From IMG/VR virus record IMGVR_UViG_3300042691_040178, positions 1 through 21,934 of that record: DNA of 21,934 nucleotides; one strand, 5' to 3'. Below the pieces are notes generated by a model. That model searched no databases. It saw only the letters and a list, made by a program, of their open reading frames with translations, and was not told where the DNA came from. The translations under genes were made by a program, and so were the position numbers. Each line of letters starts with the position of its first letter. Within the stretch, counting starts at the first letter, position 1. The stretch is from a virus. This document shows positions 2,351 to 19,783 of the stretch, piece after piece.

Positions 2351-2371
2351 TGATATATAGATAATATATCA
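2351..2371. repeat. Perfect 8-bp inverted repeat at fibre/nuclease junction
   Basis: TGATATAT at 2351-2358 and ATATATCA at 2364-2371 are exact inverted copies around a 5-base loop. The right arm includes the TGA stop codon of the 250-residue fibre gene. The repeat has only one G-C pair per arm and no U-run after it on either strand. It is therefore more likely an RNA-processing site, a protein-binding operator or coincidence in AT-rich DNA than a classical terminator. Confidence 0.4.
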
Positions 2372-3121
2372 CGGGGCTACGTCCCAAAGTCTTATATATC
2401 TTATAGTACCACCTATATTTATTTGTAAAAATTGATTAGAAGTTACAATAGTACCGGGTGAAAAATAAGCTTCTTCTTTAATGCCTTCTTGAACCAACCA
2501 ATTAGCTGAATTATCTTGCACAACAGTACTTGATTCATCCCATTTTGCTGAATTACCTACTACAATAGAATTTACAACGAAAACATTGGTAGTACCACCT
2601 CCTGTTCCACCGCCGGGGCCGACAAGTAAATCCCAATTTGCAGAATTTGCATATACCGTATTATAAGCAGATTCCCATTTTGCAGAATTGTCGGCTAAAC
2701 AGGTTTGTGCGTCAGCAAACGTCACCCCCCCATTAGTACCCCAAAATGCGCTATTATCTTGTACTAATGTAAAAATGCTAATCGCAGGATTATTATCACA
2801 TAGTAATGTATATGAATTAGGAAAATCCGTATAATCATTACCCGTATAAGCATATAAAATGGGCGTATACGCGCCATTTACATTGTCTAGAAAATAATCA
2901 CCAACGACCATTCCTTGTATGCTACTACCTAAATCGGTAGATGGGTCGCCATAATATAATTTCGAACTCGCAGCATTGCCACCTGGTGTAGAACCATCTC
3001 CAATATATAGTCTTTTTGCATCTGTAGAATAAGCCAATTCGCCATCTCTAAAAGGAATATTAATCCTTTCACTTTCGGGTCCTCTTTTTACCTGAATGAT
3101 AGCATCTACTATAGCAGCCAT
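2369..3121 (-). CDS. Tail fibre protein with Mtd-like N-terminus and NSAxW repeats
   Basis: This 250-residue structural protein starts with a domain of the major tropism determinant N-terminal type. It shows K-R-G near residue 13, G-E-L-A-Y at 27-31 and Y-I-G-D-G at 39-43, the usual arrangement at the attachment end of many phage fibres. About 22 of 51 residues match the same region of the next-upstream 353-residue protein, so the two are paralogous there. Residues 122-208 hold five N-S-A-x-W units (Trp at 127, 149, 163, 194, 208), interrupted by a glycine-rich hinge at about 168-176. The end (R-Y-I-R-L-W) resembles the end of the 137-residue fibre protein. The gene sits 8 bases after its upstream neighbour and is preceded by two tandem TAAATA-type motifs. 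A run of seven G lies in the coding strand at 2731-2725. The role is inferred to be host contact or fibre decoration. Confidence 0.8.
   Translation of the reverse strand: MAAIVDAIIQVKRGPESERINIPFRDGELAYSTDAKRLYIGDGSTPGGNAASSKLYYGDPSTDLGSSIQGMVVGDYFLDNVNGAYTPILYAYTGNDYTDFPNSYTLLCDNNPAISIFTLVQDNSAFWGTNGGVTFADAQTCLADNSAKWESAYNTVYANSANWDLLVGPGGGTGGGTTNVFVVNSIVVGNSAKWDESSTVVQDNSANWLVQEGIKEEAYFSPGTIVTSNQFLQINIGGTIRYIRLWDVAP
2498..2758 (-). repeat. Five NSAxW protein repeats in a tail fibre
   Basis: The encoded peptide contains N-S-A-F-W, N-S-A-K-W, N-S-A-N-W, N-S-A-K-W and N-S-A-N-W, with tryptophans 22, 14, 31 and 14 residues apart. The spacing is irregular because of a Gly-rich insert between the third and fourth units. 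Short Asn-Ser-Ala-aromatic units of this sort suggest a repetitive trimeric shaft. That structural reading is inference. Confidence 0.65.
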
Positions 3122-3126
3122 AATAT

Positions 3127-3142
3127 TATTTAGCTATTTAGA
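3127..3142 (-). promoter_or_regulatory. Tandem late-promoter-like motifs before the 250-residue fibre gene
   Basis: On the minus strand the sequence reads TCTAAATAGCTAAATA, two adjacent octamers each ending in TAAATA. ATATT (5 bases) separates the second one from the ATG. The nearer octamer matches the T4 late promoter box TATAAATA at six of eight positions. No Shine-Dalgarno is present. Confidence 0.6.
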
Positions 3143-4191
3143 TAACCTATAGCAGTCCAATATATTGTTACAGAATCTGGGGTTGTTGTTGAAGCAGAGT
3201 AATCTATTGCTACGTCGAAAGAAGATAAAGTTATGTTTCTTATCACTGGAGCGAAATTATTATTTATGATTGATGAATATGACATTGTTACTTGAACGTT
3301 ATAACATACTGCCCATGTTGATAACGGGAATAATATTGTTTTAAAAACATTAGCAGTTAGTGGTGATAATTGACCCCACTGAGTGATAAAACCGCCCGGC
3401 ATTATTTGGTATCCATTATTAGATTTTAAATTATTAAACTGATCAGGATTCAATCTGAGATTTCCATCGACATCAAAGCTTAAATCACTAGATAATGTCT
3501 TAATGGACATGCCATATTCATCTATATATAAACCAGATGCTGAATTAGCAAATGTATCTGTAACTTTATTTGGTGTTATGCCACCAACAATTTGTGAATT
3601 ATATATATTCTTTACAGCTAATTGATTACCTATAATTTGAATGGTATTATTATCTACATTAGCAGATAGTCCTGATATAGAATTAATAATCGCGCCGTCG
3701 CTGTAAACATTAGTACTGCCACTAGGAAGAATTTTAAAAACTCCATCAACCACATTAAATTGTGCAGGATCATAATTTATAAAAACACCCTGCCCCGATA
3801 ATGAGCTCAATCCACTATTATAGGTGTGTATTTCTCCTATATGATTTCCTTTAATACCACCTTCTTTTAATTGAAAATGGCCGAATTGAAATTCCATGGT
3901 TTTATCGTCAGGCTTGCCACCTATCATTTTCCATGTCGTCCCATCTCTGATATAACCCCTATCTTCATTTTGATTAAAGTATATATCGCCAGTACCATTT
4001 ATTGCGGGTGCAGAACGCAAAACTGAAATTTTCGGATTTATAAGATTTCCGCCACTAGTATTGCCATCACCCACATATATTTTTTTTGAATCAATAGCAT
4101 AAACCAATTCACCTTCTTCAAAGATCACGCCAGTTCTATCGGCTTCGTTACCCCTTCTCAGTTTAATTTTTGCTATTCTACGATCAATCAT
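3130..4191 (-). CDS. Tail fibre with Mtd-like N-terminus and gp53-like tip
   Basis: This 353-residue protein has three parts. Residues 5-55 form an Mtd-type N-terminal domain (L-R-R-G, G-E-L-V-Y, Y-V-G-D-G). Residues 60-250 are a fibre shaft with G-D-I-Y-F and an L-K-E-G-G-I segment like V-K-D-G-G-I in the 137-residue protein. Residues 258-353 resemble the C-terminal domain of gp53-like tail fibres, with N-G-Y-Q-I-M-P-G-G-F-I-T-Q-W-G at its start and I-Y-W-T-A-I-G-Y at its end. In known phages that domain is the receptor-binding tip, so this is the best candidate in the window for a host-range protein. The ATG lies only 4 bases after the stop of the 200-residue fibre gene and has no promoter-like motif of its own, so the two are probably co-transcribed and translationally coupled. 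Confidence 0.83.
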   Translation of the reverse strand: MIDRRIAKIKLRRGNEADRTGVIFEEGELVYAIDSKKIYVGDGNTSGGNLINPKISVLRSAPAINGTGDIYFNQNEDRGYIRDGTTWKMIGGKPDDKTMEFQFGHFQLKEGGIKGNHIGEIHTYNSGLSSLSGQGVFINYDPAQFNVVDGVFKILPSGSTNVYSDGAIINSISGLSANVDNNTIQIIGNQLAVKNIYNSQIVGGITPNKVTDTFANSASGLYIDEYGMSIKTLSSDLSFDVDGNLRLNPDQFNNLKSNNGYQIMPGGFITQWGQLSPLTANVFKTILFPLSTWAVCYNVQVTMSYSSIINNNFAPVIRNITLSSFDVAIDYSASTTTPDSVTIYWTAIGYLNS

Positions 4192-4803: not shown

Positions 4804-4811
4804 TATTTATT
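4804..4811 (-). promoter_or_regulatory. Late-promoter-like box before the 200-residue fibre gene
   Basis: The minus strand reads AATAAATA, then GTAAC, then ATG. The box differs from T4 TATAAATA at one position and overlaps the stop codon of the upstream 628-residue gene. At T4 spacing, +1 would be the A of the ATG. Confidence 0.65.
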
Positions 4812-6693
4812 CTAAATACACAACATTATCAATTGTTGGCAAATTTTTAAAATTCGGTATATATGGTTCTGTTAACTCAAATAATAAATTTTCTATTTCT
4901 ATGATTTTTGAAAATATCCTATTCATTACTTGAGGACAAACAATTTCATTGTCATTTATTTTTGTGTCATAGTTTAATAATATATTAATATTATTAATTT
5001 CTTCGTCCAATAATGAAATATAATTATTGTAATTTAAATCACCGTATCTATCATATTTGTAATAAAATCTACCTTTCAAATTATTTTTAATTTGGATAAT
5101 ATTTGAATATATTTTATATAATTCTTTATTAAAAACTAATGCTTGAACATTTTCTTCAATATTAAGCAATACTTTATCAGTTTTAAAATAAGGTAATTCA
5201 TTATTTTTTAAAATTGAATTATAAATTGTTTTTTCTTTAAAAAATAAAATTTTACTATTTGATAGAACAAATAATGAATCGCTGCCATCTTTTATGTTTA
5301 ATATATCTATATCAAAAAGATCAATCTTTTTATTTTGTGATCCAAATCCCCAACGCAATTTCATATTCTTCCATTTTATTGACTGAAATTTCCATGCGAT
5401 AGATGGGTCTTGGCCATATTTTGATCTAGTAAATGTAGCAAATGTTTTTTTCGGATTAGAAAAGAATTTTTTATATACATTTGATTTTGTGATCAAATAA
5501 AAAACATTTGAATCAACTTCTGAAAAACACATCCTCCTGAATTCGAAATCTGTTTCTTTGTAAAATGAATCTTCAAATTCAAAATCATTAAATTTATAAT
5601 TCAATCCATATTCTCTAAGTAAGAATTTTTGTTTTTTATTATCAAAAAACAAAACATACATTGAATCGTTTAATTCACGCCATCTAATATCTTTTACTTC
5701 ATAATTTATAGAATATTTTAAATTGCGTTTATATACAAAATTTGAATCATATACCTTTATTACCTTGTTACCGGAATCATTTACAAATATTAAATTTTTC
5801 TTTGAGCCTATTATATCACATCCATTAAATTTATTTTTATTTTTAGCGATACCAAATCCGCCTATAGGTTTTATTAAAAATCGCTTATATTCATAAGCTA
5901 TATCACCAGTAAAATATGACAAAATGTCGTATTTAAATACTTGGCCACCACTATTAATTTGCGAATCTGTAACAAATAAATATTTTCCATCAAAAGTTAA
6001 ATCAGATAAGTGCTCGCATTTTTCTTCTGAGAAATTATCTATAACATTTTCATATAAAACTACACCTATATTTGTGAAATCGCTATTTGATGTTAATCCA
6101 ATTAAATGTGTATCGCTGATACCTAATATAGAAGTATTATTAGTTTTGGTTTGTGGAAATATAATAAATTTTTTAAGATTATCTATTTGTGAATAACTCG
6201 ACAATGTAGTTGTTTCATTAAATGTCTGTGATTCAAATAAATAGGGATTAGTATCACTGCTGTTACGAGCAGTATGCCATGCAAATATGGTAGTATTTTT
6301 AGCTATACCTGCAGTATAAGCATATTTGTACGGAATGTCGGTATCACCAAAAAATAATCTCGAATATATATAAATTAAATTATCTTGTATATATTTCAAT
6401 TTGGTATTTATTGAAGCACAATTTACTAATTCATTTGTATCAAAATATATATCTCTTTCCGAATATGGTAATTTATTTTCATCTAATATTGTTCTATCTT
6501 TGAAATATTTTGAAGAGATGAAGTCACCGGCGTAATTATCAGATACTTTAAGAGGTAATGATTCATTAGTTCTATATTGCCCCGAAAATACACTGCCATC
6601 ATTATAAACATTATAAAATCCGCGGTACTTATTCTTTCTCAAAAAAAGTTCATTACCTTCTGCATACCCGTATTTTATCTGATATAGATCCAT
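4807..6693 (-). CDS. Large tail protein with predicted beta-propeller
   Basis: This is a 628-residue protein. From about residue 130 to 500 it shows repeated short strands of the form L-F-V-T-D-S, L-I-F-V-N-D-S-G-N-K-V-I-K-V-Y-D, M-Y-V-L-F-F-D and V-F-Y-L-I-T-K, at intervals suited to beta-propeller blades. Residues 1-125 form a separate N-terminal domain rich in aromatic residues. Residues 510-628 are helical (Y-K-I-Y-S-N-I-I-Q-I-K-N-N-L-K-G-R-F), probably a trimerisation or docking region. I see no catalytic residues. The gene lies among baseplate and fibre genes and follows the 473-residue protein by 5 bases, so it is taken as a virion tail or adhesin component. The fold call is by eye. 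There is no signal peptide. Confidence 0.7.
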   Translation of the reverse strand: MDLYQIKYGYAEGNELFLRKNKYRGFYNVYNDGSVFSGQYRTNESLPLKVSDNYAGDFISSKYFKDRTILDENKLPYSERDIYFDTNELVNCASINTKLKYIQDNLIYIYSRLFFGDTDIPYKYAYTAGIAKNTTIFAWHTARNSSDTNPYLFESQTFNETTTLSSYSQIDNLKKFIIFPQTKTNNTSILGISDTHLIGLTSNSDFTNIGVVLYENVIDNFSEEKCEHLSDLTFDGKYLFVTDSQINSGGQVFKYDILSYFTGDIAYEYKRFLIKPIGGFGIAKNKNKFNGCDIIGSKKNLIFVNDSGNKVIKVYDSNFVYKRNLKYSINYEVKDIRWRELNDSMYVLFFDNKKQKFLLREYGLNYKFNDFEFEDSFYKETDFEFRRMCFSEVDSNVFYLITKSNVYKKFFSNPKKTFATFTRSKYGQDPSIAWKFQSIKWKNMKLRWGFGSQNKKIDLFDIDILNIKDGSDSLFVLSNSKILFFKEKTIYNSILKNNELPYFKTDKVLLNIEENVQALVFNKELYKIYSNIIQIKNNLKGRFYYKYDRYGDLNYNNYISLLDEEINNINILLNYDTKINDNEIVCPQVMNRIFSKIIEIENLLFELTEPYIPNFKNLPTIDNVVYLE

Positions 6694-6698
6694 TAAAT

Positions 6699-8120
6699 TT
6701 ATTTAATATTAGTGTTTTTAAACACTACATCGTTTACGGTTACTCCAACTGGTAAAATTTTATTAATTTTTTCTAAAATAATATTTTTTACATTTTGTTT
6801 AATGATATCATTATTAATGTTGCTATTTTTAATGATAATATTAATTTTATTGCTCTTATTGCCGGGAGTATTTACTGAAAAGGTTCTCTCAATTTGTTCA
6901 ATTTCATTTCGATGTCCTGCGGGCAAAGATGCTACTAAATCTGATGCGCCATAATTTTCTATTAATAAAAATTTAATTTCATCATTTGAAATTGCTTTGT
7001 CAAATAATTTAAAATTTTTAATTGAACAATTGTTCAACATATAATTTTTTGGTTGCTTCAAATATTGAGGTAATGTTATATTATTATGAAAATAAGTAGT
7101 ACCTACAACAAATGATTCTTGCGTAATATCCTGAAAAGAAAAATCAGCTTTAGGAAAATCAATACTTTCATATAATGAACCATCTACGAATATATCAATT
7201 TTGCCTTTTATTGTATTCAGTCTAAAAATAAAATGATGTTCACCATTTTTAAAACTAGATATATCAACAGGTATTTCTAGATCGAGTATATTTCTATTAT
7301 TATAAATATTTTTTAATCTAGTTTTAAAAATTATAGATTTTTTATTTTTGAAATTATGCTTTAAATAATCATAATTTGTTAAATTATAATTTAAACGTTT
7401 ATTGCTTGATTCGTTTTCATAAATTCCATACGAATCAATTAATTTCACATTTTCAAATGTCAAAGAAGATTCATTCAATTTAGCTAAAAAATGTCTTTCA
7501 TCAGTATTATTTCCTAATATTATGGGATAAAAATTTATCCCAGATTCATTATATTCTCTTACAATATCTAATTTTATAAAAGACGCATTTGGTATTATAC
7601 CACTTAAACTACTTTCTTCATTTGTTAAGGTATATATTTTTTCTCTATATTTGTTAAATTTTGTTATCTTTGATTTTGTATGCAACACATAAAAATTATC
7701 ATCATCATCAATAATAAAGTCTCTTATTTCAGACGTGGATGATAATAAAAGATCCTTTGAACTATGATCTAAACTTTCGCGCCAAATTTCAGCGTTACCT
7801 CTTTTATACAAAACATATTCATCACGAAATATTTTAGCATGATATCCATCAAATCCATAAACATTTCCGTTTTTCGAAACAATTGTTTTACAATTTATAT
7901 CGATGGGTTCCTCATCACTTACAAGATCTTGCGGAGGTAATATTCTCACTGAAATTATTTCTTCTGTTTTTAAATTTATACCCAAACAATTATTTTGTTC
8001 AAACAAATAATACAACATATCACCTTCAATGTAGTATGAAATATATTTTTGATTCAGGTCACCAAATGAATCAAAAATAGCACCGTTTGAATAAAATTTA
8101 GATGTATATGGTAATGTCAT
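6699..8120 (-). CDS. Tail protein with propeller-like strands and LamG-like domain
   Basis: This is a 473-residue protein. Residues 20-170 hold propeller-like strand repeats (N-V-Y-G-F-D-G, D-D-N-F-Y-V-L-H). Residues 240-385 look like a concanavalin/LamG jelly-roll: G-E-H-H-F-I-F-R-L-N, then I-D-I-F-V-D-G-S-L-Y, then a typical closing I-K-N-F-K-L-F-D-K-A-I-S segment. Such domains usually bind glycans, so host-surface contact is plausible. The C-terminal 75 residues (A-G-H-R-N-E-I-E-Q-I-E-R) form a separate module ending in V-T-V-N-D-V-V-F. The ATG is 2 bases after the stop of the 726-residue gene, in a different frame and without a promoter-like box, so the pair is translated from one message. 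It may once have been part of a longer chain with that neighbour. Confidence 0.72.
   Translation of the reverse strand: MTLPYTSKFYSNGAIFDSFGDLNQKYISYYIEGDMLYYLFEQNNCLGINLKTEEIISVRILPPQDLVSDEEPIDINCKTIVSKNGNVYGFDGYHAKIFRDEYVLYKRGNAEIWRESLDHSSKDLLLSSTSEIRDFIIDDDDNFYVLHTKSKITKFNKYREKIYTLTNEESSLSGIIPNASFIKLDIVREYNESGINFYPIILGNNTDERHFLAKLNESSLTFENVKLIDSYGIYENESSNKRLNYNLTNYDYLKHNFKNKKSIIFKTRLKNIYNNRNILDLEIPVDISSFKNGEHHFIFRLNTIKGKIDIFVDGSLYESIDFPKADFSFQDITQESFVVGTTYFHNNITLPQYLKQPKNYMLNNCSIKNFKLFDKAISNDEIKFLLIENYGASDLVASLPAGHRNEIEQIERTFSVNTPGNKSNKINIIIKNSNINNDIIKQNVKNIILEKINKILPVGVTVNDVVFKNTNIK
6700..6707 (-). promoter_or_regulatory. Late-promoter-like box before the 628-residue gene
   Basis: The minus strand reads ATTAAATA, then AATTTA (6 bases), then ATG. 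The box has two mismatches to TATAAATA, both in its first three bases, and the TAAATA core is intact. It overlaps the stop codon of the upstream gene. Confidence 0.5.
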
Positions 8121-10748: not shown

Positions 10749-11339
10749 TTAGGTATTCACTTCTATATATTCATTAAATTTAGTTACGATATTAGCAGAT
10801 GTAGCAGGTACAGTTGATAATGTACCCGAAAGAATGTTTATTATTGCATCTTCTTCTGCGGATAAACTACTCATATAGTCTCTGTATGAAGTGACATTAG
10901 AACCAGATCTAAAGTTAAATAATTGATTATTATTATTTTTTATTACAAAAAATAAATCATCATTTTCCTTAGTATCTATGAATTGGGCGTTTTGTATTGT
11001 AGCACCTTCGAAATAATCAAGCGTAGAAGGTGGTATAAAAACTAATGGTATGAGATATTCAAATATATTAAAATTGCTATAATATAACCTAATTTGCAAT
11101 ATATCCTTTTTTATATCAGACACTGAATCTCTTTTTTTGAGAAAAAATTTACTTTTTATATCTTCAAATTCATTTATATATACATTGGTATCAAATATAA
11201 TTTTTGTTTTTATTAAATCAGCATTATTGCTTATATTGTAATTCAAATTTAATTCCAATTCTAATTCGTTGAGCACTTTAACTCCATCTAGATATGAGCC
11301 CGAATTACCGTCCACATTCAAATCAATATTAAACAGCAT
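10749..11339 (-). CDS. Hypothetical structural protein in the baseplate block
   Basis: I do not recognise this 196-residue protein. It is beta-rich at the N-terminus (L-F-N-I-D-L-N-V-D-G-N-S-G-S-Y-L-D-G), which could be a small sandwich domain. It ends with a segment L-S-A-E-E-D-A-I-I-N like F-T-E-E-E-N-A-I-I-N near the end of the 726-residue protein, so the two may share a module boundary. The start overlaps the end of the 938-residue gene by 11 bases. A weak A-A-G-G-G-A-G purine stretch lies about 12 bases upstream, too far for an ideal Shine-Dalgarno. With no promoter-like box of its own it is taken as the second cistron of the 938-residue unit. A minor virion component is the best guess from context. 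Confidence 0.62.
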   Translation of the reverse strand: MLFNIDLNVDGNSGSYLDGVKVLNELELELNLNYNISNNADLIKTKIIFDTNVYINEFEDIKSKFFLKKRDSVSDIKKDILQIRLYYSNFNIFEYLIPLVFIPPSTLDYFEGATIQNAQFIDTKENDDLFFVIKNNNNQLFNFRSGSNVTSYRDYMSSLSAEEDAIINILSGTLSTVPATSANIVTKFNEYIEVNT

Positions 11340-14145
11340 AAAAATTTAAACTCCCTTCTAGTATATCAGAATCATAATTACATTCAGGATTAATTAAATT
11401 TATGTCAAACAAACTAGAATGTTGATCATTAATAAAATCTACGGTATTATAGGTACCTGCTTTCATCATCGAAATTAAATTTGCTTTTAAGATTAATAAT
11501 TCATTATTATTGTATTTAAAAAATATTTCATATATATATGGCATATTATTGTTATCGTATAAGGTACAACAAATAGCATGCATTTTATTTCTGGAATTAT
11601 GGGTTATAATGGGTTTTGATACTCTAGTAAAAATAACAGGCAAAGGATTATCAAATTCTTCAATACCCAATAAATTTTTATCAAAAATATATGATATTTC
11701 TTCTATATTGGCATCATTATATGATATTTTATAAATTGTTGGTGATATATTACTATTGATAAAACCGGCATTAGATATATCTATTTTACAAATTAAAGAG
11801 TATTTTTTATTTTCAAAAAAGAATGGTTCAGATAAATTTCCACTTAGTATATTGCTTGGTGTATTTAATGATTTAAATTTTCCATCAAACCCATACTTAT
11901 CGAATATCACATAATTTTTGGTTTTTATATATAAAATATCATTAAATACACCAAAATTCATTATATCATAAATTAATTCTGCTGACAATGTATTATTGTA
12001 ATTATATTTTTTAAGAATATTAATAAATGCATCATTTATGATAGATATTGTATTGTCTTTTATATTTTTTACGTATATTTCTTTCCGCGAAATTGATAAT
12101 AAATTTTTTGTTTGTGTATTACAGTTTTCTTCAATTTCATTTAAGAAAATATTTTTTGTACTATCAAACTCTTCATAAATTTCATTTTGAATGAAATTGC
12201 CGCCATCAACATCTTCGAATACAATAGAAGATAAAATATAATTTTGCGTAAAAGTGGCTTCAAATGTTATAGCATCAAAAAAACTACCGCAATTATATAT
12301 TATGTCGGGAGAACCAAAGCCAAGATCAAAAGGATTTATTTTTAATGAAAAAGTTGCTGTATCTGGTATATCAAATGTTAAACCATCATATATAATATTG
12401 CCAGTAGTGGCCCTTATCATTAAACCATTAACTGCGCCGCCGATACCCCCGTCTAATAATATATTATAATAATAGTTTGAACTAAAAATATTACCCGGCC
12501 AAACATCCCTATCAGAAGAGCATAATGCAGGTAATTGAGTATTATCATCAAATAAAAATATACCACCGTCATACTTGCTAAACGATGTAACGCTTTGATT
12601 TTTAGTAAATCTCTGGTCGGAATATTTTTTAAATTCAGTGGGTTCAAATAATGCAAATTGATTGCCGTATATATCACTTTGCCAATTTGTTATTTTGCCT
12701 TTATTTGCAATGGACAAAAATCCCAATTCTAATCCTTTTTTATTTATAATTTTAGAATTAGCTATTTGATTTTTAGCTATATACCCATAAAAATTTTGTT
12801 CATATGGATTAGAAAATATATCACCTTCTGAAAACCCATCTGATAATTTTTTAATTATGGGGGTATAATCTTGAGTGTGTATTAATGGATATTCATTGAA
12901 ATATCTATTTGTTAGTCCTGTAGTATTACCATATCTGTTTGGATCCGGATATATGTATAGTTTATTTGGTTCTAATTTCGAATAATCTATTTCATAATGA
13001 TTTTTAGGAACCGAAAAATATAATAATCCTGTTTTTTCTGGTTTGAAAAATAAACCAATTTTTCTTAATGTTTTTAATTGAGAATCTTCTTCAATCGAAG
13101 CGGTACTCGGAAAATGTCGGTTTAATAAATTTCCCGAAGGATTTTCTGCTTCGAATAATTTACCAGTCTCTATGTCATTTTTTGAATTGCCAGTTTTTAC
13201 ATAATAAAAATCAGCACCTATAAATTTTTTTATAAGAATACTTTTTAAATCTAAGATATTGGCTGCATAATCTTTATATTTTGATATTAAATTAAAAAGT
13301 TTTTCGCCTGATTTGCAATTTAAATTTGCTTTTGTAATATCATAATTAATTGAAAATACTCTGCCAGTTTCTTTTAAGAATATATCCAATATTTCAAAAA
13401 TATATTTTGTAGTCGCTGCATCAAAATCTAAAAAGATATTTCCGTCTATATTATTAGTATTAGCCGCAAATAATTGCTGTCTTAACACATTTTTAGTGTC
13501 ATATAATTCATGACCTGAATCAGGATCATTGTCTAAGTAAGTTGTATATACGTCGATAAGCTCCTCAATTTCTATATCCAATGTACTTATAATTTCATCA
13601 ATTTTTAATCTAGGAAAATTATAAGCCAAACTTTGATCGTCTGATACTAAAACGTAATCTGTAAGTGAATCGTAAATTGCGCTTTCTACAGATTTTTTCG
13701 TTCCTCTTTCTTGATTTTTATTTGCAGATTGTTTTGTTTTTTCTCTTTTTTCAGAATGATATTTGCATATTTCAATTATTTTTTTTGAATATAATGGAAT
13801 TATAATATCCAAATCATTATCATCATTAAAATCTGCAAGTTTTAAAAAACGCCTTTCTTCTAAAGTCAAATAATTAAGACTTATATCTTTTAATAATTCA
13901 ATATACCTTTCTTTTATTAATTGTTGTGATTCAGAACTGCTATTTTTTTTTACGGTTGACCAAACAAACAAATAATTTTTATAGGCTGCATTGTATTGTT
14001 GATGCGTCAGTCTGATTTCTGTATTTTGCAGAAAATCATAAAATGAAAAAGCCTCTTTAAAATCTTTTGCAGTAGCATTGTTAATTCTATTTTTTGTTAT
14101 AGAATTAGAAGGCAGAGGTAGCTGTTCATTTAAACCAGTGGACAC
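11329..14145 (-). CDS. Large baseplate/tail structural protein, GTG start
   Basis: This is a 938-residue protein. The start is GTG at 14145-14143, preceded by TCTAAATA and TTTTT, the same layout as at gp25. Residues 30-160 are helical and charged. Their core L-T-L-E-E-R-R-F-L-K-L-A-D-F-N-D followed by D-L-D-I-I-I-P-L-Y-S-K-K-I resembles the N-terminal region of large virion proteins next to the baseplate genes of marine T4-like phages (from memory). The middle includes a segment with W-P-G-N-I-F near residue 550. The last 300 residues are beta-rich with short propeller-like strands (Y-V-I-F-D-K-Y-G-F-D-G). No enzyme motif or signal peptide is visible. It follows the 1100-residue protein by 18 bases in the slot where T4 has gene 8, but I see no convincing similarity to gp8. 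Confidence 0.72.
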   Translation of the reverse strand: MSTGLNEQLPLPSNSITKNRINNATAKDFKEAFSFYDFLQNTEIRLTHQQYNAAYKNYLFVWSTVKKNSSSESQQLIKERYIELLKDISLNYLTLEERRFLKLADFNDDNDLDIIIPLYSKKIIEICKYHSEKREKTKQSANKNQERGTKKSVESAIYDSLTDYVLVSDDQSLAYNFPRLKIDEIISTLDIEIEELIDVYTTYLDNDPDSGHELYDTKNVLRQQLFAANTNNIDGNIFLDFDAATTKYIFEILDIFLKETGRVFSINYDITKANLNCKSGEKLFNLISKYKDYAANILDLKSILIKKFIGADFYYVKTGNSKNDIETGKLFEAENPSGNLLNRHFPSTASIEEDSQLKTLRKIGLFFKPEKTGLLYFSVPKNHYEIDYSKLEPNKLYIYPDPNRYGNTTGLTNRYFNEYPLIHTQDYTPIIKKLSDGFSEGDIFSNPYEQNFYGYIAKNQIANSKIINKKGLELGFLSIANKGKITNWQSDIYGNQFALFEPTEFKKYSDQRFTKNQSVTSFSKYDGGIFLFDDNTQLPALCSSDRDVWPGNIFSSNYYYNILLDGGIGGAVNGLMIRATTGNIIYDGLTFDIPDTATFSLKINPFDLGFGSPDIIYNCGSFFDAITFEATFTQNYILSSIVFEDVDGGNFIQNEIYEEFDSTKNIFLNEIEENCNTQTKNLLSISRKEIYVKNIKDNTISIINDAFINILKKYNYNNTLSAELIYDIMNFGVFNDILYIKTKNYVIFDKYGFDGKFKSLNTPSNILSGNLSEPFFFENKKYSLICKIDISNAGFINSNISPTIYKISYNDANIEEISYIFDKNLLGIEEFDNPLPVIFTRVSKPIITHNSRNKMHAICCTLYDNNNMPYIYEIFFKYNNNELLILKANLISMMKAGTYNTVDFINDQHSSLFDINLINPECNYDSDILEGSLNFYAV

Positions 14146-14163: not shown

Positions 14164-17100
14164 TTAGGAATTTGAAGACAATAATTCTAAACCAACCATT
14201 AATTCACGAGTAATTATACTTTCTGCGGAGTCCCACCATTGTGCTTGTGATGAAATAGATTCCGATAATGTTGTAAAGCTGTCATTCCAATTTATGATAC
14301 CTTCTAGTTGTTCATCAGAATATGTTGATATGTATTTATAAAATGTATAATATTTTTCAATTTCTTCATTATCATATGATTTAGGTAGTACTAGAGACCA
14401 GCCCCACGACGGTGTATATCCCGATAAAGCATATGTTTTATTCTCGGAATCTAAAAAATTCGCAGTTAATACATTGGTATTACATAAATTATAAGTATCT
14501 GAAAATCTTTCGTGTGCTATTATATAGCCATCATCAATTGATATAATTGAATTTAAAAAATTTAATTGTTCACCCAAATTTTTGCCATAAAAAGTATTTG
14601 AATCGGTTGTATATCCTTTACTATCAAAATTTTCGTTAAATTTATTTCGCGATCCTTTTAATTTAGATAATTTTATAGAAAATAAATCTAATAATCTTGT
14701 TATATTAGGAGGAAAGTTATATGTATTGAAAATATATAAATTTTCATTTAGTAATTTGTGAATAGAATTCAATTTATCAATATTACACGTATCAATAAAA
14801 CTATTGTTATCTACAAAGTTTGATATTTTTTCATAAATCTTCTTTCCCAATAACGTGGGTGATTCATTAGATGTGCCTAGGCACATTTTTATGAATTCAT
14901 CGAGCAAATCATTACTATTTTTTAATGATTCTTGAAACGAAAAATTTTTCATTTGCGATGCCATGTCAAAATTTTCATTTATCTTCGCAATACCTTTTCC
15001 ACTAACGGGATTTATATTAAAAGTGTTACTACAACACCCGGTGGTACTAAATTGAGGTGGGCCATATAAAAATTTTTCTGTATATTTAAATCCAGTAGGA
15101 TCTCCTTTTGTATTAATAAAATTTTGATAAAAACCTATTGTATTTATATCATTTAATTTTATAATTTTAGGAGTAGATGATACATTATTAATTATATTGT
15201 CAATAGTGAATATTTTTATATCACTATCTACATAGTCAAAAATTAATAGATCGCCCTGGGTAGTAGAAGCTATACCATTAAAATTACAATCATTTGACAT
15301 TATATCGGATGTCGAATCAACAGACATTATATACGATACATCATTTGTAAAAGATGGTTTTATCAAAATATCGTTCTTGTTAGCTATAAACCACAAATTT
15401 TCATATATATCATATGAAAATGCCCATACCTTGTGATCTATATTAATAAAATTAATTTCACCTGTATCTTGATTTATTTTTAATAAACCATCATTTTCAA
15501 AATTATTTTTATTTTGTAAAAGTATCCATGAAATTTTTTCATAAGTACAAATTATATCATTTCCTATATAATTTTCCGGTATTTCATAATTATTTAAAAT
15601 AATACCATCTTTGTCATATACACAAATAAAAGATGATAATGAAAAATTATATACAACCCATGCATTATTTTTTACATCAATATCCACTATTGCGGGCAAA
15701 ATAGAGTTTGAACCAGCAGCGCCACTGTTAGGAATATAATAGGTATTACTAGAATAATCTATATTATCTGCACTAGGCGCAGCATAAAATAAAATATCAC
15801 CACTACTACTCAATTTACATACGCTAATACTATCATATAATGTTACCCACACATCACCCTTTTTATCAGCAGCGATAAAACTAGGAGATGAGCCTTGCGG
15901 CAGATATATCTTTTGAACATCATTATTATCGAAATCAATTTTTGCTATTAGGTCCTGATCTGAATCAATAGCCCAATATGTATGTGAAATAATAGCATTT
16001 TTATATGAAGGGACTACAATAGAAGCATACATACCTGATAGCGTTTGTGTATCAAAAACATGTTTTACAGTATTATTTTCATCGAAAATATTTGTAGCAT
16101 AATTATGTGCTAGATCAAGTTTATATATACTAGTAGATTGTGGATTTGTAATAATAGTATGTTTTGTGTCAACATACATGAAGAAATCACTAATCCCATT
16201 AACATCACAACATATAGATACATTATCTCTTGCAATTTTAGGTATTATATAACCTTTAAAAAATCCTAATTTTTGATAATTCTCAAATTCACCATAATCT
16301 TCATATATATCAAAAGCTGATGGTATTATTGTATCCGTAGTAGTGTCTTTCAAATAAAATTTTATTGAATTTTCATCCAATTCTTCATTCTCTTTTTTAA
16401 GAGTAAATTTCTTCCATGCTTTACTACTAAAATTGCTAAAATCTTTTACTTTAGCTACAAAAGGTATTTTTTGACCTAAAAATTTATTTTTACTTATCTG
16501 GAAAGTTGCAATATTAAAATTTCCTTCAGAATCTATACCATTAGTAGAAAAAGACACACAACTCAATTGTTCTACATAATGAATAGCTGGTGTATATGTT
16601 GCTTGGGTAGTACCATTTAATACAGAGTATTGTTCAGCTATATTATATTTAACATTATCTACATCATAAAAATTACTATAATCAAATGATATGCTTATGT
16701 TTGCGGGTTTTATAGTTTTATTATTGGGTGTACGAACTGTGTCGTCTGTGTAATATATAAGACGTTGTCCCGAAGTACCAGCTAATACAGATCCTATGTC
16801 ATCTTTTTTGCAAAAAATTATATTATTATTCTCATTTAATTTAACATAGATATCTACATTATTTGTTGTTTTTATTGTTTTTACTGGTATTGGATCGAAT
16901 GTAGAGAGAACTGCATTATAGTCGAGAGTTAAAAACCTAGCACTGGGTTTAAGGTGTGCATATTTGTCTAAGTAATAGTTTTCAATATCCAGAATCGGAG
17001 AAGAATTTCCCGATACTTCTAGCAAAATAGAAGCACCTTCGCTTGATAACGAATTATATGATTGCCAACTATTAAATCGTGAAATTAAAAAAGGACATTC

Positions 17101-17466
17101 ATATCGTGAACTTCTTATAATAGCATTTTGTTTTGAAGATAGAACCAATGTGTCAGAAATAAAATCTTTTACGAGTATATTTTGTACAAAAGATGATTCA
17201 TATCCTATTCCACTAGCTCCATAGAAATAACATTTTACACTATAAGTACCGGGTACTTTATAAAAGTGAGTTGCAGTTATGTCTCGGGATGTTGTACCAT
17301 CACCAAAATCCCATATAATTCTAGTATTTGATACTGCAAGACCATCACCAGCATCAAATTTTGGTATAAAAGTAAATGGCGTAATTGGCAAAGTATAGCC
17401 TGACGTAATTTGATTATAAGTATAATCAAGAACAGAAAAATTTAAATATCTAAAATCAGCGTTCAT
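14164..17466 (-). CDS. Baseplate protein with PKD domain and beta-propeller (gene 7 position)
   Basis: This is an 1100-residue protein. Residues 28-103 are a clear PKD (Ig-like) domain: W52-D-F-G-D-G57, H67-x-Y69 and P72-G-T-Y-S-V. Residues 435-765 look like an NHL/lyase-type beta-propeller, with repeats such as Y-W-A-I-D-S-D, D-V-W-V-T-L-Y-D, N-A-W-V-V-Y-N and N-L-W-F-I-A-N. Residues 785-1100 are a C-terminal domain containing G-D-P-T-G-F-K-Y, Y-T-P-S-W-G-W and Q-L-E-G-I-I-N-W, which I associate with the protein encoded after gp6 in marine T4-like phages. T4 gp7 is of similar length (1032 residues) and also follows gene 6, but I cannot show homology. The ATG overlaps the gp6 stop (TAATG), and a strong GAGGTGA precedes it, the one good Shine-Dalgarno I found. 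The likely place is the baseplate wedge or its rim. Confidence 0.78.
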   Translation of the reverse strand: MNADFRYLNFSVLDYTYNQITSGYTLPITPFTFIPKFDAGDGLAVSNTRIIWDFGDGTTSRDITATHFYKVPGTYSVKCYFYGASGIGYESSFVQNILVKDFISDTLVLSSKQNAIIRSSRYECPFLISRFNSWQSYNSLSSEGASILLEVSGNSSPILDIENYYLDKYAHLKPSARFLTLDYNAVLSTFDPIPVKTIKTTNNVDIYVKLNENNNIIFCKKDDIGSVLAGTSGQRLIYYTDDTVRTPNNKTIKPANISISFDYSNFYDVDNVKYNIAEQYSVLNGTTQATYTPAIHYVEQLSCVSFSTNGIDSEGNFNIATFQISKNKFLGQKIPFVAKVKDFSNFSSKAWKKFTLKKENEELDENSIKFYLKDTTTDTIIPSAFDIYEDYGEFENYQKLGFFKGYIIPKIARDNVSICCDVNGISDFFMYVDTKHTIITNPQSTSIYKLDLAHNYATNIFDENNTVKHVFDTQTLSGMYASIVVPSYKNAIISHTYWAIDSDQDLIAKIDFDNNDVQKIYLPQGSSPSFIAADKKGDVWVTLYDSISVCKLSSSGDILFYAAPSADNIDYSSNTYYIPNSGAAGSNSILPAIVDIDVKNNAWVVYNFSLSSFICVYDKDGIILNNYEIPENYIGNDIICTYEKISWILLQNKNNFENDGLLKINQDTGEINFINIDHKVWAFSYDIYENLWFIANKNDILIKPSFTNDVSYIMSVDSTSDIMSNDCNFNGIASTTQGDLLIFDYVDSDIKIFTIDNIINNVSSTPKIIKLNDINTIGFYQNFINTKGDPTGFKYTEKFLYGPPQFSTTGCCSNTFNINPVSGKGIAKINENFDMASQMKNFSFQESLKNSNDLLDEFIKMCLGTSNESPTLLGKKIYEKISNFVDNNSFIDTCNIDKLNSIHKLLNENLYIFNTYNFPPNITRLLDLFSIKLSKLKGSRNKFNENFDSKGYTTDSNTFYGKNLGEQLNFLNSIISIDDGYIIAHERFSDTYNLCNTNVLTANFLDSENKTYALSGYTPSWGWSLVLPKSYDNEEIEKYYTFYKYISTYSDEQLEGIINWNDSFTTLSESISSQAQWWDSAESIITRELMVGLELLSSNS

Positions 17467-19286
17467 TAAATCACCTCAATTTTGTTTAATAAATTGCTTA
17501 TTTGGTAAAAGAAAGGAAATTGAAAATATTGCAAAGCATAATTTTGTGAAGTATTTTCTAAAGTAGCTTCTGGGTATAATGGATTCCATACTACGAAATT
17601 AATTTTAGATACAAAAAATTCATTGTCTTTACTATATCTGTGTGTTTCTATTTTTTGGATACCAGGGATAGATAAAATATCTTGTGATAATTGTGCTAAA
17701 TTTAAAATTGATCCTAATTTATTATTTGCTATGTCAAAGAATTTTTGTATTATATCAAATACATTACTTTTTATTAATTCTTTCGATGTGTTATAAGCAG
17801 GGTCTCTGTATATTTTTAATTTTGTTTCAGCACGTACTAAATCCGTGTTTGTTTCGTCAGGAAAAGGTAGCCCTATATCAAATGCATTATATATCGGATC
17901 ACATACAACTACATTTTGATTGATTAATTTAATATCATTAAATGATTCTACAATAGCTTGTTTTTGGGAAATTGGTAAACCTATAGGTGTTTCTTCATTA
18001 AGAATAGAACCATATTTTGGAACAACAAAGCAATATACATTATTGAAATCACAGCTGTCAGAAAATAAAACTTGATTCATCAATACTCTTTCATCTTGAT
18101 TGGGTCTTTCTAAACCTATATCATAAAAATATTTTAAATAATATTTTGTATAATCTTGATTATTAACTACCTTAGTATTTTCAATAATATTAGAGAACTT
18201 TGATGAAATTTTTGATTCAAAGTCACCTACAGTAACACACCTGTTTTGTGACATGAACATTAGAGGTGCATTTTTCTTAATTTCATCAACTGTTTCGTAC
18301 GATTTAAAATTTGTTGAAGCTGTTTCATTATTGAGATTAAAATATGTCAATTGATTTACATCAATTTTAGTAGCATTTGATATTCTAATATCAGAATAAA
18401 TTTCATTCCACCTGTTTGTATTATAAAGAGATAATTGTCTGCCTGTTAATAAATTAGAACCGATTTTTCCTGTTGTTCCTTTACTTTGTAAATAATAAAT
18501 CGCTATTTGATCACCAGCATTTAATTGTTTTCCATTTACATCATTGCCAAATTTTAATTCATAATTTAAATTTTCATTAAATCTTTTTTCAAAAACTTTG
18601 GCGGTTGATTCTTGACCATATACTGTATCAACTTCTTTCCATTCTGACCATTTTTCAGTGTATATGTCACGGACAAATACGAAAATATTATTATTATCGA
18701 TAATTGTTGTGTTGTTGATCAAGTCTTGTATAGTTATAACTTTTATTTCAAATGCTTCACCTAATGCCGTAGTAATTGGATATTCCTTTACATCGCCTTG
18801 ATATAAGACTGCATTGTTTACAACACTATCAATATTTTCACTTTCATTAACCGATTTTTCAAAAAAAACATCTTCTGTAAATGTATATGTTGATCCATCT
18901 ACGTTTATATATGAAAATCTCGGCAACAAATAAGAACCGGGTATTAAATTTGAATTCGCACTAAATTCACTTAATGTAACAGAAGGCGTATGATATCCGT
19001 GAGGTTTATAACCAATTAAAGAAACTATTTTATTAATATTTTCAAATAATTCTGCTTGTGAAAATGTTGCTTCTGCAGAAGTTTGATTGACATAGAATAA
19101 TAATACATGATACATGTAAGCTACTACATCAACCAATGCAGAAATATTACTACCTTCGAAATCAATATCTTGAAATTTTTCAGATGTTTTTAATCGATTT
19201 ACAATTAATTGCTTCATACTAACAGCATCAAATGCTGCGTATGCATTTCTTGGTAAATTAAATTCTGTAAAATTAGATATTGCCAT
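17466..19286 (-). CDS. gp6: Baseplate wedge protein, T4 gp6-like
   Basis: This 606-residue protein (T4 gp6 is 660) is directly downstream of a gp25-like gene. The N-terminus has the F-E-G-S-N-I-S-A-L-V-D-V-V-A-Y segment and Y-V-N-Q-T-S-A-E-A, the family's helical start. L-I-G-Y-K-P near residue 92 follows. A G-D-F-E-S-K segment lies in the middle, and I-P-G-I-Q-K-I-E-T-H-R-Y-S near residue 560 is a typical C-terminal motif. In T4, gp6 forms the core ring of the baseplate wedge and contacts gp25, gp53 and gp7, so the neighbours fit. The ATG is 2 bases after the gp25 stop without its own box or Shine-Dalgarno, and the stop overlaps the next start by one base. The three genes are one operon. Confidence in the family is high. 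Confidence 0.88.
   Translation of the reverse strand: MAISNFTEFNLPRNAYAAFDAVSMKQLIVNRLKTSEKFQDIDFEGSNISALVDVVAYMYHVLLFYVNQTSAEATFSQAELFENINKIVSLIGYKPHGYHTPSVTLSEFSANSNLIPGSYLLPRFSYINVDGSTYTFTEDVFFEKSVNESENIDSVVNNAVLYQGDVKEYPITTALGEAFEIKVITIQDLINNTTIIDNNNIFVFVRDIYTEKWSEWKEVDTVYGQESTAKVFEKRFNENLNYELKFGNDVNGKQLNAGDQIAIYYLQSKGTTGKIGSNLLTGRQLSLYNTNRWNEIYSDIRISNATKIDVNQLTYFNLNNETASTNFKSYETVDEIKKNAPLMFMSQNRCVTVGDFESKISSKFSNIIENTKVVNNQDYTKYYLKYFYDIGLERPNQDERVLMNQVLFSDSCDFNNVYCFVVPKYGSILNEETPIGLPISQKQAIVESFNDIKLINQNVVVCDPIYNAFDIGLPFPDETNTDLVRAETKLKIYRDPAYNTSKELIKSNVFDIIQKFFDIANNKLGSILNLAQLSQDILSIPGIQKIETHRYSKDNEFFVSKINFVVWNPLYPEATLENTSQNYALQYFQFPFFYQISNLLNKIEVI
17471..17477 (-). promoter_or_regulatory. 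Strong Shine-Dalgarno of the 1100-residue gene
   Basis: The minus strand reads GAGGTGA, then TTTA, then ATG, a near-complete complement to the 16S rRNA tail at good spacing. It lies in the last codons of gp6. It stands out because no other gene here has a comparable site at normal spacing. Confidence 0.8.
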
Positions 19287-19288
19287 AA

Positions 19289-19765
19289 TTAGTAGTTTGT
19301 ATAACCAATACTATTTAATGCACCAGACATTGTGAGTGCTGGTGTATTTAATTGGGGTATTGAAAATGAAATTTCTATGTTATATTCAGATGTATCATAC
19401 ATCGGATAAACATTAACATAATTCAATAATATTCTGGGTTCAAAAAATGTTAATTTAGATCTAATAAGGCCCGCAATATCCATAGCAACCAAATCACTCA
19501 TAGGATTGAATAGAAATTTTTTCAAATCCAATCCAAATTCGGGATTTAATATTTTTTCACCAGGTGCTGTATTAAAAATATTTCTAATAGAATTTTTAAT
19601 AGCATTCATATCATAATCCAACATAATATCATTTATTTCTGGCAATTGCCTGAAATTATCTTTGATTAAATATTTTTTTTGTAGATCTAAATGCAAATCA
19701 GAATAAGTAAATGCCTTGTCACTAACGCGTAGTTCAGGTAGTCCACTTATTTTAATTGACGCCAT
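19289..19765 (-). CDS. gp25: Baseplate wedge protein, T4 gp25-like
   Basis: This protein of the GPW/gp25 family is 158 residues from ATG at 19765-19763 (M-A-S-I-K). The frame is open back to a TTG at 19780, but that would place the start across the promoter-like box, so I reject it. The family signature is clear: I-R-N-I-F-N-T-A-P-G-E-K-I, then N-P-E-F-G-L-D-L and F-L-F-N-P. T4 gp25 (132 residues) has a lysozyme-related name but acts as a sheath-like nucleation piece of the baseplate wedge, binding gp6, gp53 and the first sheath ring. Extra N-terminal residues make this version longer. It heads the operon gp25, gp6, PKD/propeller protein and diverges from the plus-strand 186-residue gene, with 31 bases between the starts. 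Confidence 0.88.
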   Translation of the reverse strand: MASIKISGLPELRVSDKAFTYSDLHLDLQKKYLIKDNFRQLPEINDIMLDYDMNAIKNSIRNIFNTAPGEKILNPEFGLDLKKFLFNPMSDLVAMDIAGLIRSKLTFFEPRILLNYVNVYPMYDTSEYNIEISFSIPQLNTPALTMSGALNSIGYTNY

Positions 19766-19770
19766 AAAAA

Positions 19771-19778
19771 TATTTAAC
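19771..19778 (-). promoter_or_regulatory. Late-promoter-like box before the gp25-like gene
   Basis: The minus strand reads GTTAAATA, then TTTTT, then ATG at 19765. The TAAATA core is intact and spacing is 5 bases. It is 5 bp from an oppositely oriented copy of the motif. Confidence 0.6.
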
Positions 19779-19783
19779 AATTA

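Follow-up and report, generated by a model that had tools for sequence, protein, structure and literature searches.

A gene in the gp7 position of a viral baseplate wedge cluster is most likely a distant version of T4 gp7 with a constant PKD domain and an optional propeller

Introduction

The gene that directly follows gp6 in the baseplate wedge cluster of this virus, hereafter X, most likely encodes a distant version of T4 gp7 and not a purpose-built adhesin. We will argue that X, in an uncultured lineage of T4-like myoviruses of bacteria, is the gp7 counterpart, composed of a C-terminal core, a PKD domain that would act as a joint and a propeller that can be dispensed with, a model that, taken as a whole, we consider probable. 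As X lies in the gp7 position and its fold gives a hint of gp7, yet no match to gp7 is found in its sequence, it is to be seen as a counterpart of gp7 that stands outside the sequence family of T4 gp7. We will present the gene and its relatives, then its parts, and we will then weigh the other readings of the same evidence.

The gene and its genomic setting

The window, that is, the whole stretch of 21,934 nucleotides that was analysed, is a complete 21.9-kb virus record that we take to be a fragment of a genome. X occupies positions 14164..17466 on the minus strand as a single open frame of 1100 aa, whose ATG start shares one base with the stop of gp6 (TAATG). Upstream of it are found two baseplate wedge genes of the same strand, gp6 (17466..19286; phrog_219, E 2.8e-43; Pfam Gp6-like_1st) and gp25 (19289..19780; phrog_261, E 3.2e-29; PF04965), together with the clamp loader gp44 (phrog_168, E 4.5e-84). 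The slot after gp6, which an earlier note on this DNA had assigned to the gene without stating its strand, is thus confirmed. On the other side of X lies p938 (11329..14145, minus strand), a protein of 938 aa in the gp8 position that belongs to no known family: no Pfam family was matched at E<=0.01 in 38 of its members. The dN/dS of X is far below 1 when the window is compared to the related loci L003, L004 and L005 (dN 0.096-0.122, with a dS of 1.33-1.37 that is near saturation, and with L005 giving figures nearly identical to those of L004).

Further downstream of X and p938 are two fibre candidates (window 3130..4191 and 2369..3121; 353 and 250 aa) that have in common an Mtd_N domain, the N-terminal domain of the major tropism determinant; the former additionally carries a gp53-like C-terminal fibre domain. 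The products of 4807..6693 and 6699..8120 look propeller-like by eye and gave no useful Pfam matches. The second looks LamG-like at its end, also by eye, and a PDB sequence search with the first returned nothing useful.

Relatives of X and gene order

At least 330 stretches of viral contigs were confirmed to carry a relative of X. Viral contigs were searched twice, with lists of 26 and 80 loci that partly overlap, from which 102 loci result; these searches were seeded on the window protein or on a family alignment and favour long members (84 long, 15 short and 1 cut among 100 distinct rows, contig-end fragments included). The gene order is highly constant: gp6 adjoins X in 101 of the 102 listed loci, L101 being the exception, and gp25 adjoins gp6 in 94 of the 95 that have room for it. 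A second survey was seeded on gp6, the queries being the gp6 proteins of X-bearing loci; of the 501 stretches that it confirmed, the best 80 were retained. By a count of names, it shares about 20 of its 80 contigs with the X set, which makes this survey less biased but not independent. Once the 5 loci with less than 300 nt after gp6 are dropped, X is next to gp6 in 73 of the 75 that can be tested; the remainder consists of L194, where X comes about 690 nt further on, and of L182, where just 380 nt are left. We also observed an X relative in which a stop separates two open frames, one for the N-terminal part and one for the C-terminal part (L174:7802-11989), be it through a sequencing error or in reality.

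Outside these contigs, 50,697 GenBank phages compared with six diverse X members gave nothing, bar one weak match over the PKD region, and a single pattern derived from the alignment of the C-terminus picked up 199 stretches in a collection of genomes of bacteria and archaea, none of which was confirmed. Only two PHROG matches at E<=0.01 were obtained among the 43 X members scanned, in one member each.

The PKD domain, constant in the members scanned and among the better conserved parts

The PKD (Ig-like) domain of X spans residues ~25-104 (17155..17394, minus strand). The signature that had been noticed in the letters alone proves to be real: within residues 45-78, PF18911 (E 8.7e-8) scores 32.6 bits against a curated cut-off of 27, and PF00801 (E 7e-7) 29.6 bits against 23.5, while the AlphaFold2 model of X, which was built on a 62-sequence alignment with a mean pLDDT of 82.3, predicts the strands of a beta-sandwich. 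A profile of the X family also matches PDB collagenases in their PKD domains. When the window protein and 42 relatives were scanned against Pfam (E<=0.001), PF18911 was found in all 43 and PF00801 in 40 of them. The PKD domain is therefore the constant part of the X family.

How well the parts of the protein are conserved was measured on 875 pairs among 66 long members, with an overall identity of 35-85%. Mean identity is highest for the C-terminal helices (56.8%), followed by the PKD domain (51.5%), the middle region (48.3%), the C-terminal beta domain (46.8%), the propeller (43.4%) and the linker that precedes it (41.1%). The propeller and its linker are thus the least conserved parts, and the PKD domain is among the better conserved ones. 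The difference can be large, as between the window and L006 (PKD 90%, propeller 59%), and it is smaller in distant pairs (32% and 24% with L056). The presence of the PKD domain in every member scanned and its slower evolution compared to that of the propeller argue against its being a fast-evolving adhesin; such conservation is what a structural joint would show.

The middle region and the propeller

The beta-rich middle of X (residues ~105-432; 16171..17154, minus strand) is followed by the optional propeller (residues 433-796; 15079..16170, minus strand). The latter, which the earlier note had proposed, is upheld as a predicted fold. In the model, 28 strands of at least 3 residues each lie between residues 436 and 789, forming a ring of four-stranded blades, seven by count. 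Aligned to known propellers with VIA-align, this part of X gives Z of 25.9-29.8 among the matches listed (50 rows), the best being 1l0q (Z 29.8, rmsd 2.4, 285 residues), a protein that itself combines a propeller and a PKD. With the full-length model, the matches listed by Foldseek in the PDB and BFVD are also dominated by propellers. At the level of the sequence, the Pfam propeller match (Vgb_lyase) is partial and below the cut-off, with 22.5 bits for a required 50.

Residues 105-349 are retained in both short and long members, and it is the stretch of residues 349-805 that is reduced in the short ones, to 68-99 residues. In the gp6-seeded survey, where a complete X was defined as one open frame longer than 500 aa that stops short of the end of its contig, the propeller profile matches 29 of the 48 complete proteins and does not match the other 19. 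When mapped on a gp6 tree with 51 rows (these 48 loci plus the window, L013 and L018), the distribution of the propeller needs 4 changes, against 15.4 in shuffles, and at least 3 of the 4 are forced by well supported branches. The propeller is thus mostly inherited and follows the clades instead of being shuffled among them. It is an optional clade-level insert that was gained or lost a few times, in other words a lineage trait.

The C-terminal region and its weak structural match to gp7

The large C-terminal domain that had been proposed is present (~825-1100), and the domain boundaries given for X as a whole turned out to be good. Helices come first, then a beta domain and finally a long helix. 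The conserved helical domain (residues ~828-940; 14647..14985, minus strand) weakly resembles the helical domain of T4 gp7 in structure, and the beta domain with the terminal helix covers residues ~960-1100 (14167..14589, minus strand). Residues 800-1100 were folded separately, with a pLDDT of 78.9, and 413 PDB chains were aligned to the resulting model, only 11 of which reached Z>=2. The fourth row is T4 gp7 itself (5hx2_A, residues 638-692; 49 residues, rmsd 3.6), weakly matched over a stretch that coincides with its Pfam Gp7_helical domain (643-689). The fifth, also weak, is a chain of the XM1 baseplate (7kh1_A2; 74 residues, rmsd 5.2). According to the available text of PMC10457771, XM1 gp17 is the orthologue of T4 gp7, and its built part covers residues 1-79 and 107-200, a total of 173. 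Since 7kh1_A2 also has 173 residues, we infer from this length that it is gp17. The Z of these two rows (2.7 for T4 gp7 and 2.6 for XM1) are far below the level that is meaningful for the tool, where anything under 8 may reflect a common arrangement, and mean nothing on their own. The predicted fold of the C-terminus gives a hint of gp7 likeness.

The third row, 8kea_A, is a chain of the cyanophage A-1(L) baseplate complex that matches a different part, and we counted it against the gp7 reading. It was not taken as support, and neither were the other rows at Z>=2, namely two rotavirus chains, 5ogx, 7cal_A, 6l2u_A, 4wqt_X and 3aoi_X. With the same C-terminal model, Foldseek gave no match under E 1, and a PDB profile search with the C-terminus gave three chance-level matches only.

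Comparison with gp7 sequences, and gp7 elsewhere

No match was obtained between X and the gp7 profiles phrog_964, PF21428, PF21427 and PF21456. Its alignment by hhalign with T4 gp7, cyanophage gp7, gp6 and gp8 gave a probability of at most 1.2%. For this purpose, X was taken as a whole and as its C-terminus, propeller and middle, not each against every target, and p938 was also among the targets. As the control pair, T4 against cyanophage gp7, is itself weak (probability 17%, E 0.0014), the method operates here near its limit. A likeness between the C-terminus of X and the N-terminal domain of gp6, seen by eye, found no support in hhalign and was set aside.

The gp7 reading put forward for X supposes that there is no true gp7 homologue elsewhere, and no gp7 of the T4 type was found in related viruses: the T4 gp7 profile phrog_964 matches none of 13 large contigs (98-236 kb, possibly partial), the window record being only 21.9 kb long. 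In the same contigs, the gp6 profile phrog_219 is matched in 13 of 13 and the T4 portal in 11. As for other profiles, gp8 (phrog_438) was matched in one contig, weakly, gp53 in three, all below the cut-off, and phrog_17744 in none, in the latter case without any matching control. The T4 gp7 helical-domain profile PF21428 matches the T4 record and misses that of S-SM2, in which a gp7 is annotated, so it covers only the nearer kin of T4.

X and known systems

The gene order gp25-gp6-X-p938 fits both that of T4 (gp6-gp7-gp8) and that of the cyanophage S-SM2 (gp25-gp6-gp7-gp8). T4 gp7 (phrog_964; Pfam Gp7_helical, Gp7_5th and Gp7_6th) is like X in its position after gp6, in its length (1032 aa compared to 1100) and in its layout, with a helical domain well towards the C-terminus that is followed by domain V, which we read as a beta domain. 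The two differ in that no sequence match connects them and that X has a PKD domain where T4 gp7 is fn3-like. The idea that T4 gp7 is unlike X has to be qualified, as T4 gp7 shows an N-terminal, Ig-like fn3 match that stays under the threshold (residues 7-89; E 0.0019, 18.8 bits against 25) and, at residue 212, an Asp-box motif. Proteins of the same slot, likewise preceded by gp25 and gp6, can also be far longer than X, with 4156 aa for S-SM2 gp7, more than 5700 aa in S-RIM8 and more than 6900 aa in P-SSM7; this slot tolerates very different protein sizes. No sequence similarity was seen between X and the first 320 residues of these cyanophage proteins.

A named entry close to X is A0A6J7XER1, a "PKD domain containing protein" of 1177 aa from an uncultured Caudovirales phage (Foldseek E 3.6e-92, TM 0.64 of the query, 27% identity). 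It very probably belongs to the X family, and it owes its name to the PKD domain alone. A wedge protein with additional modules has been described in the Bacillus phage Vp4, whose baseplate wedge protein 3 carries predicted carbohydrate-binding modules (PMC11406892, in its available text); it is like X in having such extra modules, but both the wedge protein and the modules are different. In the accessible parts of the open-access literature, no wedge protein of the gp7 position is described as carrying a PKD domain or a propeller.

Other readings of X

X could also be a new wedge component that was inserted after gp6, the true gp7 then being p938 or a protein that goes unrecognised, and we find this unlikely. 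p938, which was looked for with the window's sequence only, follows X in 79 of the 88 listed loci with room for it. It is close to T4 gp7 in size (about 850-1600 aa in relatives), and its N-terminus bears a conserved PFF..KI...YY...R...LKGS in which the eye sees a likeness to the core of gp7, whereas X itself matches no gp7 profile. In addition, the L027 contig carries a weak gp8-like stretch (phrog_438, E 1.3e-5, 78/478 positions) beyond the gene that follows X, which means that more than one gene lies between gp6 and this stretch. Nevertheless, hhalign of p938 with T4 gp7, cyanophage gp7 and gp6 gave nothing, so that the resemblance seen by eye was not retained. Moreover, the slot of p938 is that of gp8, and it was not found immediately after X in nine of these 88 loci (L013, L018, L019, L023, L024, L027, L090, L098 and L101), so X after gp6 is the more constant of the two. 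It is also the C-terminus of X, the only one of the two proteins to be folded, that returned gp7-type chains, albeit weakly.

The earlier note had rather suggested that the PKD and propeller are host-surface binding modules that turn the wedge itself into an adhesin. We consider this doubtful, and a little more so than the previous reading. The propeller is indeed optional and more variable than the PKD domain and the C-terminal helices, and some X relatives carry extra modules. In L027, the X relative begins with a fused sedolisin-like protease domain (L027:8654-9913; Kumamolisin-As match, E 1.7e-16), a fusion seen on this one 163-kb contig only; its ETSLD, AAGDSG and GTSAAAP are presumably the catalytic motifs. 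In L070, L077, L081 and L097, long Thr/Pro repeat linkers and further domains are found in or after the C-terminal region, those of L081 being similar by eye to RCC1-type repeats without a match in a PDB sequence search. Besides the Vp4 wedge protein mentioned above, we counted as precedents the predicted PKD domain of the receptor-binding proteins of Deep-Blue and Vp4 (available text of PMC11406892) and T4 Hoc, which has PKD domains and binds mucus (available text of PMC13370021). Against this, the PKD domain is found in all members scanned and evolves slower than the propeller, the latter is mostly inherited according to the gp6 tree, the per-domain dN/dS values are well below 1 in three comparisons, and separate Mtd_N fibre candidates are encoded downstream. 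On equally doubtful ground, the gp7 slot might be a display platform, in which a constant PKD-plus-core scaffold receives a propeller in certain clades and a protease or Pro/Thr-linked domains in a handful of relatives, and by which part of the contractile baseplate would itself touch or trim the host surface before the fibres lock. Finally, it is very improbable that the propeller is an enzyme akin to virginiamycin B lyase or to lactonases: Vgb_lyase is the sole propeller family matched in X, and Vgb or streptogramin lyases are good structural matches, but the Pfam score remains under the cut-off of this family, and many other propellers score as high as the Vgb-type ones or higher.

A model for X in the baseplate wedge

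If X is the counterpart of gp7, its organisation can be projected on that of known wedges. In both T4 and the T6SS, two gp6-type subunits and one gp7-type subunit are associated through a common three-helix bundle and a triangular trifurcation (available text of PMC6300606). In X, the C-terminal helical domain would likewise join two copies of gp6 in the wedge core, and the beta domain that comes after the helices would lie close to where the wedge branches. The PKD domain, together with the beta-rich middle, would extend towards the periphery of the baseplate, where both could serve as a joint or as a docking surface for the neighbouring wedge and fibre proteins. In T4, the domains of gp7 are in contact with gp9 and gp10, and a change of state of the baseplate makes one of these domains swivel by ~45 degrees to the outside (PMC3004832, in its available text); by analogy, the PKD domain of X may be a joint like this swivelling domain. 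The propeller, which in some clades is inserted between the middle region and the core, would add a further surface for docking, and possibly for a ligand.

Should X indeed be gp7, a widespread uncultured lineage would have remodelled a core protein of the T4-like wedge until its sequence is no longer recognisable, and the annotation libraries that we tried miss it. This reading gives a name to a gene of at least 330 viral contig stretches and provides a test. X would also be a case of a wedge protein that gained or lost a whole propeller several times.
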